A DNA stretch of 25,839 nt from a virus, in the IMG/VR virus record IMGVR_UViG_3300042485_004491, positions 1-25,839 of that record; one strand, given 5' to 3'. How positions within the stretch are numbered: the stretch's first letter is position 1; every line of letters starts with the position of its first letter. The notes under the pieces are model-generated. The model was not told where the DNA came from. It searched no databases and was given only the letters and a program-made list of their open reading frames with translations. The position numbers and the translations under genes are program-made. Positions 1-25,839 of the stretch are shown one piece after another.

Positions 1-44
1 AGGGCTGCTTGCAAAGCGTCGAGTTGGGTTTGTGAAAAGGACAT
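1..44 (-). CDS. gpW-like head-tail joining protein, N-terminal fragment
   Basis: Only the first 14 codons are in the window (MSFSQTQLDALQAA), running off the left edge. The fragment resembles the start of phage gpW-family head-tail joining proteins, which typically open with a short helix of the form M.F...QL.AL..AI. The position supports this: in lambda-like and many betaproteobacterial prophages gpW follows the large terminase subunit and precedes the portal gene. Here it follows the terminase genes on the same strand after two inserted fibre-like genes. With so few residues the call relies mainly on context. Confidence 0.5.
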   Translation of the reverse strand, partial: MSFSQTQLDALQAA

Positions 45-67
45 GGTGGTTGTTTTCTGTTGGCGCC

Positions 68-472
68 TCAGCGCCAGACGGTCAGGTTCATCTCTGTGGT
101 GTCGGTGAGCGTCCCGTTTGAGGTGGTACAGATGACCTCCACAAATTGGATGGTCTTGGCTTCTGCTGTGGCGCGCGCGCCGGCATGTTTCATGGCCGAT
201 TGGTTGCCTGCATTGCGTGCGAACGCCTGCCAGCAGTAGCTGGTATCTGGCATGGGGCTCGAAAACGTCACCCGGAATTTGCCAGTGGTTGTGCGGGTGA
301 CGCTATGAACATTGAACCCAGCCCGAACTACCACCGAGGCTTTGCTGCCAGTTCCAATCACCCCGAAACACACCCAGGCTTTGGCAACCCCAGGGTGATC
401 GGCGGTGATGCGGGTCTTGAGTTCAAGAGCCAGGCGCTGTGCCAATTCGGTAATGTGTTGGGCCAGGTTCAT
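68..472 (-). CDS. Phage tail-fibre-like protein (134 aa)
   Basis: This looks like a small phage fibre or receptor-binding-type domain. Residues 1-25 form an amphipathic helix that could trimerise. The rest is beta-rich, with the pattern HPGVAKAWVCFGVIGTGS then FNVHSVTRTTTGKFRVTF and MPDTSYCWQAFARN. This matches the block often seen in phage tail-fibre ends as KAWVNFNGTGT...V.SI.DNGTGDYTV.F....PD.NY. It lies six bases after the other fibre-like gene, on the same strand, between the large terminase subunit and the gpW-like gene, where fibre genes are not normally found. The pair therefore looks like an insertion. Host-binding specificity cannot be read from the sequence. Confidence 0.6.
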   Translation of the reverse strand: MNLAQHITELAQRLALELKTRITADHPGVAKAWVCFGVIGTGSKASVVVRAGFNVHSVTRTTTGKFRVTFSSPMPDTSYCWQAFARNAGNQSAMKHAGARATAEAKTIQFVEVICTTSNGTLTDTTEMNLTVWR

Positions 473-478
473 GAATGG

Positions 479-985
479 TCAGGCCAGCAGTGCCGCTTCA
501 AATGCCGCCACAAAATCGGTGTCCGCGTTGCCGATATCCAGCACTGAGACTGCACCGATGTTCTGGCGCGCCTGTTCCTGCTCAAGGGCGGTCAGGGATT
601 GCGCCGCATCAAAGCGCACCCGCTTGTCGACAGCGGCAAGCAAGGCCGCGATACCCGTCTGGTCATCCAGAATGGCCGTTTGAAGCTCTTTGAGCGTGTC
701 AAATGCCGCATCGGCACCACCCAGCAAGTCAGCTTTGAGGGCATCCAGCAAGGAGGTGATCTTGGAGGCAGAAAACGTAGTGGCGGTACCCGCCGCGTTG
801 GCATCGTCAATGATGGTGACGCCAGCCAAAGTGGAGATCTGGCTGCGCAGCTCGTTGATGGAACTGACGAGGTTGGTTTTGTCAGTGGTCGAGAGGTTGG
901 CCAGCGTGCCGACCTGACCGTAAATGGTCTTGAACTCGGCGGCTAGGCGCAGAACCAGGGATTCAAGGCGTGTTTGCAAACTCAT
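479..985 (-). CDS. Phage fibre/appendage-like protein (168 aa)
   Basis: A helical, low-cysteine protein with a signature common in phage head- or tail-fibre stalks: a segment resembling ALKADLLGGADAAFDTLKEL (about residues 82-101), then RVRFDAAQSLTALEQEQARQ and NIGA (about 126-150). In phage fibres these blocks sit in trimeric stalk regions. The N-terminus (LESLVLRLAAEFKTIYGQVG) is a likely coiled coil. The start is supported by GGAG nine bases upstream. An intrinsic terminator lies just upstream at 1020-1038, between this gene and the terminase. The assignment as a virion appendage is inferred from pattern and context. Confidence 0.6.
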   Translation of the reverse strand: MSLQTRLESLVLRLAAEFKTIYGQVGTLANLSTTDKTNLVSSINELRSQISTLAGVTIIDDANAAGTATTFSASKITSLLDALKADLLGGADAAFDTLKELQTAILDDQTGIAALLAAVDKRVRFDAAQSLTALEQEQARQNIGAVSVLDIGNADTDFVAAFEAALLA

Positions 986-15362: not shown

Positions 15363-16208
15363 TTACTCTTTGGAATCAGTGGGGGTTGGGGCTTGTGGGT
15401 TCTGTTCAGGGGTGCCAGCGCCAGCGCACTTGGCGATGAGCGCACCCAAGTCGGGCGGCTCAAGCAGGTCAAGACGACCGCTGCGGTCTTTGGCCGGATA
15501 TCCGTAAGGGTTGATGGTCTGGGTGACGAACGCTCGGTAAGACGTGCCGTCTTCAGCCTTGATCTCAGCCAACGTCACCACCTCGTCCACGATGCCCGGC
15601 AACTGCAATGCAGTGGCGCTGCCCTCGATCTGCGGCACAAACACCTTGCGGCCAAAGTCGTCGGTCTTGGTGTCTAAGATGGCCACGAACACCACGTTCT
15701 TGCCACGAGCGTGCTGCAAATGAGTGAGCGCAGTGACCATTTCCTGGCCTAAAAGGCCATATGCACCACGCGAATCCGGCTTTCCAGTGCGGTCGGAGAA
15801 CGCTGCTGGCTGGCTCTTGGCCCAGTTAAAGCACAGCCGTGATAGCGCCGTGATGGAGTCGCAAAAGTAGGTCCGATACTTGTCCAGGCTGGCCGGGTCG
15901 CCATAAACCGAGCAGACATGATCGAAGTGCGCCTGTGAGAACGGTGACTGCTCGGGCAGCGCCGGGTTGGGCCCAGCCAAATAGACCACCAGATCCCGAA
16001 ACTCGGGCCAGGTGCGCGGCCGCAGACAATCGCCTTCCCAGTCTGAGACAGACAGGTCACCCGCCTCCAAGTCAATGAACAAAGTGGACTGGGTATCGAG
16101 GAATTTCAGCTGTGTCGTTTTGCCGATGCCACTCACACCCAGAATGACGATCTTGACACCACGGCGCTGCGCGCGCCGCTGGTCAGCAGTAATGATGGGA
16201 AGTGCCAT
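15363..16208 (-). CDS. Sak4-like RecA-fold ATPase
   Basis: A 281-aa ATP-binding protein of the phage Sak4 type, RecA-core single-strand annealing or recombination ATPases. Walker A is ILGVSGIGKTTQL (about residues 22-34). An early DLEAGD (about 46-51) matches the acidic motif after strand 2 in this family, and TYFCDSITALSRL (about 113-125) is a Walker B-like strand. The rest continues the core (NVVFVAILDTKTDDFGR; VDEVVTLAEI). The C-terminal ~30 residues are Pro/Thr-rich and disordered. It starts right after the previous stop and is followed by the probable SSB, supporting a recombination role. Confidence 0.82.
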   Translation of the reverse strand: MALPIITADQRRAQRRGVKIVILGVSGIGKTTQLKFLDTQSTLFIDLEAGDLSVSDWEGDCLRPRTWPEFRDLVVYLAGPNPALPEQSPFSQAHFDHVCSVYGDPASLDKYRTYFCDSITALSRLCFNWAKSQPAAFSDRTGKPDSRGAYGLLGQEMVTALTHLQHARGKNVVFVAILDTKTDDFGRKVFVPQIEGSATALQLPGIVDEVVTLAEIKAEDGTSYRAFVTQTINPYGYPAKDRSGRLDLLEPPDLGALIAKCAGAGTPEQNPQAPTPTDSKE

Positions 16209-16709
16209 TTAAGCCACCTCCGGATCAATAGTCAGGGTGAAAGTCGGCTTTCCGGCTTCCACGGTTCTGGCCAGCGCAAACTGCTGCTGCAACGCTGGTG
16301 GCCAGTTCGTATACCGTGACTCAGAAACTGTGAGCTTGATGTCGACGTAGCTCCTGACTTGCTCGCCCGATGCCACCACACGCTCTGCAATCTCGCCCAG
16401 TTGCTTTTGGTCCCAGGTGATCTTTTTAGGAAGCTCGAACTTGATACGAAGGGATCCGTCGCTAATGTGGGTGGTGCCAAAATCACGGCCGGATTCCAGC
16501 AGCGCGGCTTTGGCTTGTTCTTCATAGCACTGCTTCAAAGCGGCGTCGAATTTGGTACGGGCCTGTTTGAGCCAGGCAATGGCTTTGTCCAGATTGACAT
16601 CCACTTCAAGTTTTTGAGCGGGTGTCAGCTGGGCCAGTTGGCTCACGGACATTTCGGCGATGTCGGCAGGAAAGATGGTGAGATCAGTCATGGTCACAGC
16701 CGCCTTCAT
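16209..16709 (-). CDS. Hypothetical early phage protein (166 aa)
   Basis: No family recognised. The N-terminal half is helical and probably a coiled coil (about residues 25-70: LTPAQKLEVDVNLDKAIAWL, then KQARTKFDAALKQCYEEQAK). The C-terminal half is beta-rich (SLRIKFELPKKITWDQ, YVDIKLTVSESRY, PTFTLTIDPEVA). The start overlaps the HTH gene stop as ATGA; a second ATG 18 bases later (16691) has AAGGCGG upstream and is an alternative. It abuts the Sak4-like gene, so a recombination-accessory role is possible. Confidence 0.7.
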   Translation of the reverse strand: MKAAVTMTDLTIFPADIAEMSVSQLAQLTPAQKLEVDVNLDKAIAWLKQARTKFDAALKQCYEEQAKAALLESGRDFGTTHISDGSLRIKFELPKKITWDQKQLGEIAERVVASGEQVRSYVDIKLTVSESRYTNWPPALQQQFALARTVEAGKPTFTLTIDPEVA

Positions 16710-16969
16710 TGGTAAACCGAAGTGAAGGTGGAGTGCCGCGACACGCGGCGCTCATAGGCTTCGATCTCTGAGATGAGATATGTGACCCGGGCCCCCATCT
16801 TGCAGAAGATGGGTCCGAGTTTTTCCTGCCTCCAGCGGCGCAGGGTTTTGACTGAAAGCCCCCAACGCTGGGCGAGCTCGTTTTCATCGATTGCGATACG
16901 TTGCACCGCTGGACGAGCTAACTGCCGGCTGTGCCGTTCAGAGTGGACAAAAGATGTGGTGTTTTGCAT
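16706..16969 (-). CDS. AlpA-like HTH regulator heading the early operon (87 aa)
   Basis: A small DNA-binding protein with an AlpA/excisionase-type winged helix: IDENELAQRWGLSVKTLRRW then RQEKLGPIFCKMGARVTYLI and SEIEAYERR (about residues 37-82). ATG 16969 follows GGAGG by nine bases. As the first gene of the long minus-strand operon, with three phased GAACTTATG repeats 45-90 bases upstream, it may bind them and control its own operon. That binding is inference; the repeats are visible. It overlaps the next gene as ATGA. Confidence 0.78.
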   Translation of the reverse strand: MQNTTSFVHSERHSRQLARPAVQRIAIDENELAQRWGLSVKTLRRWRQEKLGPIFCKMGARVTYLISEIEAYERRVSRHSTFTSVYQ

Positions 16970-17013
16970 TTCGGTGTACCTCCTAGTTGGAATGCACACC
17001 GATCTTTTTGCCG

Positions 17014-17057
17014 GAACTTATGGCGAACTTATGCCCGAACTTATGGTTTTTCTTATG
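17014..17057. promoter_or_regulatory. Three phased GAACTTATG repeats (operator candidate)
   Basis: GAACTTATG occurs at 17014, 17025 and 17037 with 11- and 12-base periods, and CTTATG again at 17052. The period is about one helical turn, so bound protein would stack on one DNA face. The block sits between the end of the SOS-box operon and the first gene of the early operon, where that operon's promoter should lie. Confidence 0.7.
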
Positions 17058-17061
17058 AGTT

Positions 17062-18003
17062 TCAAATCAGACCCCGGCGAACGCAATATTTGCCGTACCC
17101 GACCTTCTCGATGACATGCTCGCGGCGAGCTTGATCTACAAAAGCGTCATCAAATGACTGATAGCCGGTTTTGGCTAGCTTGTTGACTGCGCTCCAGGAC
17201 ATGACTGGGGGCAACTTTTGCGGCGCGCCCCACATGTGTTTGATGATGTTGGATTGCTCGTCACTGAGCACCAGAGATTTGGTGAAGTGAGCCAACTTGA
17301 GCCGGTTGACTTCAAAGTACTCCTGCGGTTCACTTTCTGCTTTGATCGATGCATATCGCATCAAAATCCGATCAAGTGCATTGCGATCAAAAGTGCTGTT
17401 GCTACCATCAAACTCCACCAAATCGGCAAAGCAGCGCTCAATGTGCTCACCGTACAGCTTTGGGCTGGACGCCTTGTCGACAAACAAGATGCCACTGCCA
17501 GGATCGACCTTGTCGTCAAGTAATGCCTTGATCTGTGCGCTGGCCTCACCCTGGCTGTTCCGGGCGACATACACCTGGACTAACTTGTGGGTTTTGCCAA
17601 CTCGCACCGCACCCAGATGCCAAAGGTGACCAGAAATCAGCTCACGCTTTTTGATCATGGCACCGGGCTCGAGCCCAATGAAATCCCCAAGGTCTTCAAG
17701 CCACTTGTCCATGCAGACGCTGTAATGCGTGACCTCCCAAAGTGGGGCAACCACGATGTGCCCCCTGCGCTGGGGATTGGGATAGCGATAGACCTCTGCA
17801 GCCTCGTCGATTTCAACCTCAACTTCCATCTCATCGCCAAAGAGCTCCGCCATGTGAAAGCTGGAATAACCCACCACACGGACCCACCCACGGCTAAGCA
17901 ACTCCGCGCGATGGCTCTGCAGTTTGTTCTCAAAAAACTCTGTGTGCACGTCCTGCAAACTGTCCAGCAGTTCTATCAACCGAACAAACGGCGACAGTCT
18001 CAT
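17062..18003 (-). CDS. Unknown protein, second gene of SOS-box operon (313 aa)
   Basis: I do not recognise this protein. It is soluble, with no membrane segment. Visible features: an N-terminal helical segment, an acidic run (FGDEMEVEVEIDEAAEVYRY, about residues 55-74), a central alpha/beta region (HKLVQVYVARNSQGEASAQI then GILFVDKASSPKLYG) and a C-terminal winged-helix-like end (SAVNKLAKTGYQSFDDAFVD, then HVIEKVGYGKYCVRRGLI). The start overlaps the upstream 481-aa gene's stop as ATGA, so the two are made together. Phased GAACTTATG repeats follow its stop. Possible roles include lysogeny control, anti-host or defence function; none is shown by sequence. Confidence 0.8.
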   Translation of the reverse strand: MRLSPFVRLIELLDSLQDVHTEFFENKLQSHRAELLSRGWVRVVGYSSFHMAELFGDEMEVEVEIDEAAEVYRYPNPQRRGHIVVAPLWEVTHYSVCMDKWLEDLGDFIGLEPGAMIKKRELISGHLWHLGAVRVGKTHKLVQVYVARNSQGEASAQIKALLDDKVDPGSGILFVDKASSPKLYGEHIERCFADLVEFDGSNSTFDRNALDRILMRYASIKAESEPQEYFEVNRLKLAHFTKSLVLSDEQSNIIKHMWGAPQKLPPVMSWSAVNKLAKTGYQSFDDAFVDQARREHVIEKVGYGKYCVRRGLI

Positions 18004-19445
18004 GCCAGCGCGACCTCTTTCATGACACCCAGACTGATCAGCTGCAGCCTTACCAACTCACGGTCTTGGGCTGTTTTACAGCGGCTGCTCAGTCCATTTG
18101 GTCGGGTAATCTGAACAGAAATGTTGTGTGCCTTGCGGTTTAACGCCTTGGCAACTGACAAACTGAGATTGACGCGGCTGATGTCGTCACCAGAAAGGGC
18201 CTTGAACTGGTAGGCGTCAGATGCAACCGTGTAGAGGTCACGACTATCGCGCCGATCACGGGAGATTTCCATCTGACTTGTCAGTTGACGCCTGTTTTCG
18301 CGCCCCCGTATGGGCAGGGGGTTTGCCAAGCGAGTGACGTTGGTCAGTCGAATCTTTTGAATGGCCACCGCGCTGACGCCGACCACCAACGCGCCCTCAA
18401 TCTTGTTGATGATGGAGCTTGTTGCGAACTCTTTGAGTTCAAAAGTGCACATGGGCACGTTGGATATCGCCTCGGAGCTACCAAGCACGGTGCTTTGAAA
18501 AATGCTCGCCAGTTGCGCTCGAATGGTCTTGTCTGGGCAAAAAACACCCAACATTCCGGTCTCAGGCTCCCAAGAAAAGACAAACTCAACGGCGGCGGGC
18601 TCTTCCATTTCCACTACTTCTTTGTTGTTCACCTGCTTATAAAAGGCCATCGTGCCGTTGAAGGTGGCCGTAATGGTGTGCTGAAGCTTGTGAAATTTAT
18701 TCTGCTCTGGCTCGCTTTCATGGCGGCTGGCGTGCGAGCGATCAACGTGTTTAAAGTGATGCAGCAAGATGTCTTGGGGATCAACGCCACCAAATAGTCC
18801 GGCAATATTTATGCGCAGTTGCTCAAACATCTCCTCGTTGGGTCTAGGAATTGCTTCCTTGGGGCCAAGAAAGTGACTGGCATATTCCATGCTACTCCAC
18901 TGCTGGTTGATCGCCTGCTGCGACTCAGCCTGGTCAAATCGCTGATCGGGTAACAACCCAACTGCCGGAAACTCTTGAGCTAGGAAAAGGTACAAGGCCC
19001 GGGTGAATTTATCTGTTGGTTGAACCAGCGCCAGCGCATCGGCTTCGCTTTGTGGGTCCAGCAATGACAAAACAGACTGGATTCCAAACTCATCTTTGAG
19101 CGAGTCGATCCGGTCTGAGGCGTGCTCCAATTTGGCTAATAATTCTGGCGGTACAACTGCTATCCACTCGTAAAGCTTGCGCCGCTGCGTTGGAATCAAT
19201 GCGGCTTTGGATGCCCGAGCGGTATCAATCAGCTCCTGCGGAACATCTGCACAGCAAAATCGTTGAGCCATTTCGAGCAGCCTAAGGGGTTGCTTTACTC
19301 TGCGCGTCAAAGTGACAAAGTGCTCCATGGTTGGCAGCAGGTCTTCGCCGGAGTCGTCGCCGCGCCTCCGCTTTGGCGAATCGTCTGTTGGTCCAGTCTG
19401 TGCTGGCGAAAGAATTGCGTTGTTTAGTCCCTTTTTATCTTCCAT
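18000..19445 (-). CDS. Unknown protein, first gene of SOS-box operon (481 aa)
   Basis: No family recognised. The first ~40 residues are polar and likely disordered (PTDDSPKRRRGDDSGEDLLP, containing a basic patch). Residues ~40-200 are mostly helical. A central beta-rich part spans about 265-400 (KLQHTITATFNGTMAFYKQV; VEFVFSWEPETGMLGVFCPD; EGALVVGVSAVAIQKIRLTN). A C-terminal domain includes DISRVNLSLSVAKALNRKAH and RELVRLQLISLGVMKEVALA. The start has AAGGA nine bases upstream and lies 19 bases after a LexA-type box overlapping a -10 element, so expression is probably SOS-induced. It is coupled to the 313-aa gene by ATGA. Confidence 0.82.
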   Translation of the reverse strand: MEDKKGLNNAILSPAQTGPTDDSPKRRRGDDSGEDLLPTMEHFVTLTRRVKQPLRLLEMAQRFCCADVPQELIDTARASKAALIPTQRRKLYEWIAVVPPELLAKLEHASDRIDSLKDEFGIQSVLSLLDPQSEADALALVQPTDKFTRALYLFLAQEFPAVGLLPDQRFDQAESQQAINQQWSSMEYASHFLGPKEAIPRPNEEMFEQLRINIAGLFGGVDPQDILLHHFKHVDRSHASRHESEPEQNKFHKLQHTITATFNGTMAFYKQVNNKEVVEMEEPAAVEFVFSWEPETGMLGVFCPDKTIRAQLASIFQSTVLGSSEAISNVPMCTFELKEFATSSIINKIEGALVVGVSAVAIQKIRLTNVTRLANPLPIRGRENRRQLTSQMEISRDRRDSRDLYTVASDAYQFKALSGDDISRVNLSLSVAKALNRKAHNISVQITRPNGLSSRCKTAQDRELVRLQLISLGVMKEVALA

Positions 19446-19464
19446 CAGCCTTCGTCCTTATTTT

Positions 19465-19509
19465 TACTGATTAAAAACACAGTATAAAACGGGATCAGAT
19501 TTTTGGGAA
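19465..19509 (-). promoter_or_regulatory. SOS (LexA) box overlapping a promoter
   Basis: TACTGATTAAAAACACAGTA (19465-19484) fits the CTG-N10-CAG rule and keeps both TACTG and ACAGTA arms of the classical SOS box. On the minus strand it overlaps a good -10 (TATACT, 19486-19481), with a weaker -35 (TTCCCA, 19509-19504) 17 bases away. Transcription would start near 19474, giving a short leader before the ATG at 19445. LexA binding here would block the two-gene operon. Confidence 0.8.
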
Positions 19510-19731
19510 ACATTTGCTTGCTTTTTGAAGTCCGTGCCCAAAGATGACGCATGATTGAACCGAGCCGGTTGGGCATGGATGGATTTGCGTGAACCTTAGT
19601 TTTCCGCATGTCCGTCACGAAGACCAATCCAGCAGGCACTCTCTGCGGTGCTTCGCCAGTAAATAGCGCCTAATGACCTCGCTGACAAAAAGACTGGTTT
19701 CCACACAAATAACGACGGACAGAAAATATTC

Positions 19732-20337
19732 ATGGGATTGCAAGACAGGGGCTGGTTTCAAGATGCACAGCGTGAGCTGGAAAAGCAGCGTCAGATTGAC
19801 GAAGCGCGATTCAAATTCTCGCCTTTTTCACGAAGGAATCTGGGTACAAAGTCCAAGTCTTCGACGAAGACGGGGCTGATTCCAATGATGATCTTTTGGT
19901 TGTTGGTGATGGGAGTCTTGTACGGATTGATGACGCACTATCTGAAACCAAAGCAGGCTGAGGTGCTTGCCAACGGTGATCTGGTGATCAACAGGTCACA
20001 GGACGGACACTTTTACACGGCAGGCATCATCAACGGCAGGAAGGTCAAATTTATGGTCGATACAGGGGCATCCCTGGTTAGCGTGAGTGAAAAATTTGCG
20101 CAAAAGGCGTTCATTCTTGGCGGTGTGCCCACTACGTTTAAAACAGCAAATGGTGATCGACCGGGGCGCGTTGTGGATGGTGTGGCTGTATCAGTGGGGC
20201 CAGTAAACGTTACCAACCTTAAAGTGGGCGTTGGCCTGCGACTTGACAACGAAGATGATGCTTTGTTGGGCCAGTCGTTCCTGTCGAAATTCGACATTTC
20301 AATAAAAAACAACCAGATGGTGCTGCGGCCGCGCTGA
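19732..20337 (+). CDS. Membrane-anchored retropepsin-like aspartic protease (TIGR02281-like)
   Basis: A 201-aa protein with a cytoplasmic charged N-terminus, one transmembrane helix (LIPMMIFWLLVMGVLYGLM, about residues 49-67) and a C-terminal retropepsin-type domain. The catalytic FMVDTGASLVSVS (DTG at 110-112), the following GGVPTTFKTANGDR and the late ALLGQSFLSKFDI match bacterial clan AA proteases of the TIGR02281 type. These have one active-site motif per chain and work as dimers. Ribosome-binding support is weak. This family is usually chromosomal, so the gene may mark host sequence or cargo beyond the phage operons. Its substrate is unknown. Confidence 0.88.
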   Translation: MGLQDRGWFQDAQRELEKQRQIDEARFKFSPFSRRNLGTKSKSSTKTGLIPMMIFWLLVMGVLYGLMTHYLKPKQAEVLANGDLVINRSQDGHFYTAGIINGRKVKFMVDTGASLVSVSEKFAQKAFILGGVPTTFKTANGDRPGRVVDGVAVSVGPVNVTNLKVGVGLRLDNEDDALLGQSFLSKFDISIKNNQMVLRPR

Positions 20338-20501
20338 GCGAGTAATTCTGGCCATCACACCAAACACGCCGGGAATTTTCCACAGGCATGACTTGGCGAG
20401 TTCAAATCGGTGTTACCAGATTCATTTACTTCAATCCACCGCAAAGATGAAGTGGTTTTGACCTGCTGGCGTTTTGAAACTGACCGTGCCAGCGGATACG
20501 C

Positions 20502-20780
20502 TTAGTGCAATTTCGGCAACTCACAGCGAAGCTGTTGCCAAAAAGCATGAATGATGGCGAAACTCGCATCATCAGGATTATCTTTTCCCGAATCGTTAAG
20601 CAACTGGTTGTTGCCATCGTAGAAGCCCAAGTTGTTGCGGATCCACAGCCCCAATCCCAAATCCAAATTGATCAGGTCGTCCTCGGTCATCCCAATGATC
20701 TTGGCTTGTTCGCTATCTGGAACCATGGTCTTTAGCAACCGCACCGCAGCCTCGACAGTGGTTGGAAACAGATCAGCCAT
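20502..20780 (-). CDS. DUF6794 family protein (92 aa)
   Basis: The sequence MADLFPTTVEAAVRLLKTMV, MTEDDLINLDLGLGLWIRNN, LGFYDGNNQLL and PDDASFAIIHAFWQQL matches the small DUF6794 family (PTSVEAAV...LL; DLI.LH.GLG.WIRN; PDDAS..II...W). The role is unknown; it is soluble and helical. I chose ATG 20780, after AAAGGG, because upstream in-frame codons lie inside the nuclease gene. It overlaps the thermonuclease stop by eight bases, so the two genes are co-translated, although a functional link is unproven. The 164-base gap to the convergent protease gene holds only a modest GCTGGC/GCCAGC inverted repeat. Confidence 0.72.
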   Translation of the reverse strand: MADLFPTTVEAAVRLLKTMVPDSEQAKIIGMTEDDLINLDLGLGLWIRNNLGFYDGNNQLLNDSGKDNPDDASFAIIHAFWQQLRCELPKLH

Positions 20781-21291
20781 GGTCACCCTTTCGCCAGTCC
20801 CAAGGTGCAATGGGTGATTTTTCGCTCCATAGCCCCTGTTGGCGGGACTGAGCGCCCTGCTCCGCCTTCTCATATTTCGGGTGATCAGCGGCAGGTTGCT
20901 CCTTGGAGTACTTGCGATACCACCATGCCAGCCCGGCGCCCACCTGGCTCAAGCCAGCATCAAATGTCCGGGCACAAGCACTTGAGCAGTTGGGCGACGC
21001 CACCAGCACCTTGCCCACGATACGTTTGTACCGATCAAGCTTTGTCCACTCGATGTCGACCTCTTTGTCGAAAACCAGTCGCGACAGGTTTTCCTTTGAC
21101 ACCTGACCGAATGCCTGCTTTTTTTCGGGCGCATCTATTCCAGCGACCCGAATCTTGTGCTGTACCTTTGCTGCATCAAGCACCGTGATGGTGTCGCCAT
21201 CGGAGACACCGACCACACGGCCCGTCAGCACCTCTGCACCGACTGGGCCCAAAGCCAAGATCAGCGCGAGCGCAAGTCCAAAAATCCTCAT
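20773..21291 (-). CDS. Secreted thermonuclease (SNase-like)
   Basis: A 172-aa staphylococcal-nuclease-type enzyme that would degrade DNA/RNA outside the cytoplasm. The N-terminus is a Sec signal peptide (MRIFGLALALILALGPVGA, likely cut after residue 19). The OB-fold core has VSDGDTITVLD (about residues 29-39), KIRVAGIDAPE (Arg48, Asp53, Glu56) and LDRYKRIVGKV (Arg90), covering the expected catalytic Arg, Glu and Arg and the calcium-binding Asp residues. A CSSAC pair could form a disulphide. The C-terminal GLWSEKSPIAPWDWRK is typical of bacterial YncB/nuclease-type proteins. It is followed by an overlapping DUF6794 gene. Confidence 0.92.
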   Translation of the reverse strand: MRIFGLALALILALGPVGAEVLTGRVVGVSDGDTITVLDAAKVQHKIRVAGIDAPEKKQAFGQVSKENLSRLVFDKEVDIEWTKLDRYKRIVGKVLVASPNCSSACARTFDAGLSQVGAGLAWWYRKYSKEQPAADHPKYEKAEQGAQSRQQGLWSEKSPIAPWDWRKGDHG

Positions 21292-24693: not shown

Positions 24694-25839
24694 CTACGCA
24701 ATCCCACAGAATTGGTCATCAGGGAAATGATAAGCCATAATTTCAACAATGTCCGATGTACGGAGCAGAGGCAGGGAAAGAGCTTTGTTCGCGAAGAGAA
24801 ATTCCCAATTCCATCGATCTGCAAAACGTTTAATCAGTACCAATGACCACCTCAGGGCTTCATTTTGAGATAGACAAATCCAATCCCAGCGATTCTGATA
24901 GTAATCGATCAGATCGATCGACCAAGGAAGTGCTGCATTGCTAGAGAGTCCTCCGTTAAAGTCAACGCCCCAGTCCCACTGATCAGAAAAATATTTGATC
25001 AGTTCAAGCGACCAAGGCAGTGCTTCATTTTCAGACAATGTCCGCCAATCCCAGCGATCCGCATAGCGCTCAATCAGGACAATTGACCAAGGCAGAGTTT
25101 GATTCTCGGATAGTTCCCTCCAGTCCCATCTATCCAAAAACCGTTCGATAAGTTCGAACGACCAAGGCAGGTCGCCTTTCGAGGAGAGTCCTGGCCCGCC
25201 GCTGCACCCCTTCCAGAGCGGATACTTTTTATAACGTTCTGTAAGTTCAATTGAACATGTCAGCGCATTGGCAGGGAGCCAATCCCATCGCCACCGATCC
25301 TTGTAGCGTTCGAGCAGCTCATGTGACCACGGTAGGTCTGCATGAAGGGAAAGAAGACTCCAATCCCAGCGATCTTCAAAGCGTTCAAGCAGCTCATATG
25401 ACCACGGCAGACAATTATCAGAGAGTCCGGGTTCATCATCGCCCCAACGACTCCAGCACCATCGATCCTTAAAGCGTTCGATCAGATCAATTGACCATGG
25501 CAGGGCACGATTCACTGATAGCGCCCTCCAATCCCAGCGTTCTTCAAAGCATACGATCAGATCACGTGACCATGGTAAGTCACCAGACTGAGATAGCAAT
25601 CGCCAGTCAAAGCTATCCGAAAGGCATTCGAGTAGCTCAAGCGACCAAGGCATAGCTGGATTATCAGAGAGTCCGTACCCTCTCTCTTCGTCCCCATAGC
25701 TATAAATTGAATAGCCCCAAGCCCAAGAGTCAATATAACGCTCGATTAGCGCAAGCGTCAAGGGCAGGGCTTCATTCAAAGACAGACTAGCCCAGTCCCA
25801 GCGATCCGTAAAGCGTTCAATCAACTCTTTTGGCCAAGG
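24694..25839 (-). CDS. LPWS...RWDW tandem-repeat protein, 5'-truncated by window
   Basis: The frame is open to the right edge, so the N-terminus is missing. The visible 381 residues consist of about 13 units of the form LPWS.ELIERF.DRWDWR.LS.N.A (about 24 residues each). Several units carry a longer loop such as RWGDDEPGLSDN or YSYGDEERGYGLSDN. A short non-repeat end follows (DIVEIMAYHFPDDQFCGIA). Units average two or three tryptophans, and repeats at DNA level are evident. Similar LPWS-type repeat proteins of unknown function exist in other bacteria; a solenoid-like binding surface is likely. Base composition is visibly more AT-rich than its neighbours, suggesting separate acquisition. Confidence 0.82.
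   Translation of the reverse strand, partial: PWPKELIERFTDRWDWASLSLNEALPLTLALIERYIDSWAWGYSIYSYGDEERGYGLSDNPAMPWSLELLECLSDSFDWRLLSQSGDLPWSRDLIVCFEERWDWRALSVNRALPWSIDLIERFKDRWCWSRWGDDEPGLSDNCLPWSYELLERFEDRWDWSLLSLHADLPWSHELLERYKDRWRWDWLPANALTCSIELTERYKKYPLWKGCSGGPGLSSKGDLPWSFELIERFLDRWDWRELSENQTLPWSIVLIERYADRWDWRTLSENEALPWSLELIKYFSDQWDWGVDFNGGLSSNAALPWSIDLIDYYQNRWDWICLSQNEALRWSLVLIKRFADRWNWEFLFANKALSLPLLRTSDIVEIMAYHFPDDQFCGIA

Follow-up and report, generated by a model that had tools for sequence, protein, structure and literature searches.

The window, a virus record of 25,839 bases (abbreviated W in locus lists), carries a gene pair, A and B, which somewhat more likely than not encodes one DNA-binding regulator. 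The pair would act as lytic trigger in a prophage of the AcaML1/WO type, with host LexA in the place of the phage repressor. The signal that wakes the virus thus seems to have passed to its host.

The two genes overlap by an ATGA and form a translationally coupled pair (Table 1). Two coupled genes behind a promoter with a -10 overlapped by a LexA box, as reported in the preliminary description, were confirmed. Its statement that neither product belongs to a known family also holds, since both window proteins gave insignificant matches only in Pfam, NCBIfam, PHROG and PADLOC, and no PADLOC model of a known anti-phage defence system matched the pair. Relatives of A matched phrog_37634 (function unknown). 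A Pfam search with all 43 A and 39 B members yielded scattered weak matches only, a PDB sequence search with A and B was negative, and Rfam gave zero matches in the window.

Table 1. Features of the window and of the predicted proteins (window positions, unless residues are given).
Feature	Position	Strand	Remarks
Promoter P_A, TTCCCA-17-TATACT	19481-19509	-	-10 (19486-19481) overlapped by LexA box
LexA (SOS) box TACTGTGTTTTTAATCAGTA	19465-19484	-	11/12 arm bases match TACTGT-N8-ACAGTA
Gene A	18000-19445	-	481 aa
Protein A, helical N-part	residues about 33-182		AF2 model
Protein A, beta-rich C-part	residues about 186-480		AF2 model
Gene B	17062-18003	-	313 aa
Protein B, C-terminal winged-helix-like domain	residues about 248-308		AF2 model
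Four iterons (CATAAG type)	17017-17058	-	directly after B; spacing 0, 12, 24, 35
RNA hairpin enclosing Shine-Dalgarno of gp9-like gene	16971-17002	-	between iterons and gp9; predicted
gp9-like HTH_17/excisionase-type regulator	16706-16969	-	first early-operon gene
gp10-like protein	16209-16709	-	phrog_2480
Sak4-like recombinase	15363-16208	-	synteny anchor
Cargo region	19732-21291		between recombinase and switch
Repeat-containing protein	24694-25824	-	376 aa

The LexA box of the window has a single arm mismatch (TCAG). P_A was the sole sigma70-like site found in 16600-20000, and a match to a promoter does not by itself exceed what chance would give (2.2 expected); a LexA site as good as that of the window arose in 1% of 300 simulated windows of the same dinucleotide content. 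A scan of related loci (2.38 Mb) yielded seven sites in which 11 or more of the 12 arm bases matched. Six of these lay in the A promoter, 13-20 bp before A (two of the six being one locus fetched twice). The preliminary description had tied its SOS reading to the retention of CTG-N10-CAG in homologues. The motif was kept before A in W, L102, L103, L008, L100, L178 (10/12) and L180 (degenerate yet palindromic), and the -10/LexA box overlap (TATACTG) was found again in relatives. These loci make up one clade of A; the motif is not kept across all homologues, most of the others inspected carrying phage-encoded damage-sensing repressors at this place. By its conservation within the clade, the LexA box before A is judged to be real. 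In L066 and its copies, the XRE gene is also preceded by a CTGT-N8-ACAG site; as this site runs into the ribosome-binding site, it was taken to be a coincidence.

Boxes of the same kind were compared in Rhodoferax genome G003, the host of the relative L008. In this genome just four sites deviate by one base or less, and they precede lexA, imuA, an SRAP/YedK-like gene and the prophage gene A. The lexA, imuA and SRAP-like (SOS peptidase) genes were identified by reading protein sequences and not by HMM. Box conservation together with the match to the lexA and imuA boxes supports control of the A-B promoter by host LexA, in line with the SOS control proposed earlier.

At this position, sister phages carry other regulators. 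An XRE gene and a protease gene of the ImmA/IrrE type (HTH_3, Peptidase_M78) come before most other A genes, L135 and its relatives have a divergent XRE-M78 pair before A, and in L012/L108 an S24 repressor with a LexA-type HTH stands directly before A. The motif TTAACN3-5CRCGCAA was present in 56 copies in 2.91 Mb. All copies with an assignable gene start were located just before the XRE gene or A, and those with no assigned start were at the same paired positions. The motif looks like the XRE operator and, given this placement, the visible targets of the XRE repressor would be its own gene and A-B, without direct control of the early operon.

In the tree of A, the genes with a LexA box formed a single clade (100/100) nested inside the XRE-ImmA phages (99/97 and 96/92). 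HMM searches for HTH_3, Peptidase_S24 and Peptidase_M78, the three models by which repressor absence is defined here, detected none of these domains in the window, G762 (54 kb, from the recombinase to the capsid and beyond), G763, G764 or contig G003:C145 (75.7 kb, containing the L008 prophage from lysozyme to recombinase). Within the scope of these models, the earlier remark that a CI-type repressor is not visible holds. Because the LexA-box clade is single, is nested among XRE-ImmA phages and has no detectable repressor domains, one replacement of the phage sensor-repressor by host LexA is the simplest reading. The lysis/lysogeny switch considered in the preliminary description gains support, as the LexA box replaces the phage repressor module at the same place.

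Structure prediction, proposed earlier for both proteins, gave models in which A has a C-part with RdgC/CENP-N as best matches, at low TM-scores, and B a winged-helix-like end. The AF2 model of A had a mean pLDDT of 86.5. Foldseek against the PDB returned RdgC of E. coli (2owl) as top match (E 2.8e-4, prob 0.99) and CENP-N as well; TM-scores were low (0.2-0.35), and RexA itself was absent from the top 50. No sequence profile match to the RdgC family (PF04381) was obtained with A, and the A-RdgC profile comparison was negative. The C-part of A, as modelled, may thus resemble RdgC/CENP-N (RexA fold). Lambda RexA has the RdgC/IML3/CHL4 fold, binds DNA non-specifically and tilts the switch toward the lytic state (PMC11077077); CENP-N/L relatives of RdgC have also been noted (PMC4080450). 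The model of B (mean pLDDT 91.2) is of mixed alpha/beta type. Its best Foldseek match was Can2 (weak, prob 0.91, low TM), and comparison with viral models brought no usable match. That B might be a nuclease, an idea prompted by the Can2 match, was rejected, as the alignment has no conserved D-(D/E)XK residues. A and B are probably DNA-binding.

The fold of A also raises the question of a Rex-like exclusion module, in which a RexA-fold protein stands beside the immunity repressor as in cI-rexA-rexB. Besides the fold match, the position of A directly after the S24 repressor in L012/L108 fits such a module, as do two distant relatives near a multiubiquitin-ThiF operon and restriction genes, respectively. 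However, the modelled B is unlike the membrane protein RexB, the RexA sequence family had zero matches among the 43 A members, and in lysogens of the LexA and XRE types the prediction is that A-B is silent and not expressed. The exclusion module is considered highly improbable. The anti-phage alternative of the preliminary description likewise found no positive support in phage contexts; the two distant relatives just mentioned lie near a ubiquitin-like operon of bacterial type and near restriction genes, respectively.

Downstream of B, the arrangement of four iterons was matched by none of 300 dinucleotide shuffles (0/300). In relatives the spacing of 0, 12, 24, 35 is kept and the sequences differ (CCATAAA or TCCGGAG). 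The gp9-like protein was rejected as iteron reader because its HTH hardly varies between phages whose iteron types differ. L080 has a final third of B and iterons of the L157 type (84-96%), and both flanks are of the L076 type. By this pattern, the B C-terminus and the iterons were exchanged as one cassette, which is one clear event. Since the iteron type is exchanged together with the B C-terminus, the winged helix of B is suggested to read the iterons; physical adjacency alone could explain this single exchange. The iterons are degenerate in L008, L044 and L006. In AcaML1 they are absent near gp9, and the A-B fusion gene is oriented away from the early genes. In L023 and L066 the A-B pair lies apart from gp9, so that binding to an adjacent site cannot apply to all members.

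Four regularly spaced iterons are typical of origins, and a D5-type primase is encoded further downstream in the same early operon. On these grounds A-B was weighed as a replication initiator, with B binding the iterons as an origin by the replication genes and damage starting replication. A Pfam search of the 43 A and 39 B members detected no helicase or initiator-type domain, the iterons stand immediately 5' of a gene start, and some A-B lineages have none near gp9, which together make an initiator quite improbable.

It was also considered that LexA itself is the lysogeny repressor through read-through from P_A into one long early operon, A and B being accessory proteins rather than regulators (e.g. 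helpers in recombination). The genes for A, B, gp9, gp10 and Sak4 are co-directional, no consensus promoter or terminator was found between B and gp9 in the window, and RdgC acts on RecA and recombination (PMC11077077). The linkage of A-B to the early operon is nevertheless not general, because a terminator-like sequence follows B in L009 and L030, the pair is located elsewhere in L023 and L066, and AcaML1 gp6 points away. Read-through with accessory A and B is therefore regarded as unlikely.

The hairpin in the gp9 leader had a folding energy of -18.8 kcal/mol (z -4.95). Its arms covary strongly between lineages, and 0 of 20,000 arm permutations were as good. On sequence grounds, it is a conserved translational control element across AcaML1/WO-like prophages with no Rfam match. 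The Sak4-like protein shared 74% identity with gp12 of Acidithiobacillus phage AcaML1 and was about half identical to proteins of Wolbachia phage WO.

Several further genes of the window were recorded. In the cargo region, Pfam identifies a gag-type aspartyl protease, and the opposite strand has a gene that is secreted-thermonuclease-like by eye; at the same position L008 carries other genes and a broken thermonuclease-like gene. The 376 aa protein consists of repeats of about 27-30 aa (LPWSxxLIERFxDRWDW) and gave a weak Sigma_1s match only.

Direct sequence searches yielded nothing for A in phage and plasmid records and nothing for B in plasmid records, and pattern scans for relatives of A and B found at most one. 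Relatives were recovered by anchoring on the adjacent Sak4-like gene, resulting in 160 loci, many of them possibly incomplete contigs, with the closest named ones from Rhodoferax. A was present in about 30 of the 160 loci and was then followed by B. Proteins of 667-791 aa, among them AcaML1 gp6, form a family of A-B fusions (hhalign 99.7% and 99.1%), and two additional families represent distant A and distant B. In the wider set, B adjoined or was fused to A in 54 of 58 full A matches; of the other four, one lies in a locus with a truncated end and three are genes of the fusion type. The pair was counted in 10 of 301 genomes at the level of the Rhodoferax family, 12 of 90 at that of the genus and 7 of 369 at that of the class, some matches being weak or partial. 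It occurs in prophages of Betaproteobacteria and Gammaproteobacteria that are akin to AcaML1 and to phage WO of Wolbachia.

Individual relatives showed particular arrangements. In a Dactylopiibacterium endosymbiont prophage (L057:5094-6459) a frameshift breaks A and B is still open. In genome G635 (L208:4862-9543) a distant A-B pair lies outside a phage context, directly 5' of genes for multiubiquitin, for a small unassigned protein and for a ThiF/E1-like protein; KfrA is encoded close by. Weak A relatives occur in chromosomal regions of Rhodoferax genomes (L206:10622-12109, also L203 and L207); the one in L206 adjoins Type I R-M-like and Mrr-like genes and a Toprim/DUF3987 pair. Toxin-antitoxin-like PIN-domain and HTH_17 genes stand beside fused A-B genes in L094 (2693-3834, minus strand) and in AcaML1 (gp7/gp8), where the HTH gene is annotated as excisionase.

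For the regulator favoured here, the following course is proposed. In the lysogen, host LexA would sit on the -10 of P_A and keep A-B off. Upon DNA damage LexA would be removed and A and B would be made, a step expected from the box and from known SOS biology. The winged helix of B, with A as a DNA-wrapping partner of RdgC/RexA-type fold, would then bind the four iterons at the head of the early operon and switch on gp9, gp10, Sak4, exonuclease and primase; read-through from P_A may help or replace this activation. In sister phages, the XRE repressor with the ImmA/IrrE protease, or the S24 repressor, would act in the role of LexA, and the clade of the window would have lost the phage repressor module and use host LexA instead. 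We infer LexA binding, the A-B complex, DNA binding, activation, induction and the direction of the effect on the early operon. More broadly, A-B may be a new class of lytic master switch, with an RdgC-fold and a winged-helix protein acting on precisely spaced iterons and with an exchangeable sensor (XRE-ImmA, S24, or host LexA by itself once the phage repressor had been lost); this wider proposal is made tentatively.

In a prophage lineage documented by phylogeny, a box for host LexA has apparently taken over from the phage's own repressor at the same promoter, and this opens the evolution of induction circuits to testing. The uncharacterised pair of phrog_37634 and its partner in AcaML1/WO-related prophages obtains a likely role, and the model of A suggests that the RdgC/RexA/kinetochore CENP-N fold has a relative in prophages. 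With RexA, RdgC and IML3-CHL4 (CENP-L/N), the possible likeness lies in the predicted fold of the A C-part, together with the position beside the immunity module; no sequence homology was detected, A has an extra helical N-terminal domain and B is not RexB-like. AcaML1 gp6 is a fused homologue in an AcaML1-type prophage. It differs from the window pair in being a single protein of 751 aa, listed as hypothetical, transcribed away from the early operon and located beside the PIN/HTH pair.

Switches of the ImmR-ImmA type (XRE repressor and IrrE/ImmA protease) occupy the same place in sister phages, with the operator before XRE and A, and are absent from the clade of the window. Tum of phage 186, AntC of N15 and GfoA/GftA of Gifsy are LexA-controlled antirepressors of phages that retain their own repressor (PMC3121763). 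As predicted for A-B, induction in these systems is set off by a phage gene that LexA controls directly. There, however, a small antirepressor inactivates the phage's own repressor, whereas the clade of the window has no detectable repressor and its genes are large and unrelated. In Bacillus phage GIL01, host LexA represses phage transcription together with the phage co-repressor gp7 at several SOS boxes (PMC4551915), and host LexA is likewise the predicted repressor of phage transcription in the window. GIL01 depends on this co-repressor and on its several SOS boxes. In contrast to GIL01, the window represents a tailed prophage whose sister phages show the repressor module that was replaced.
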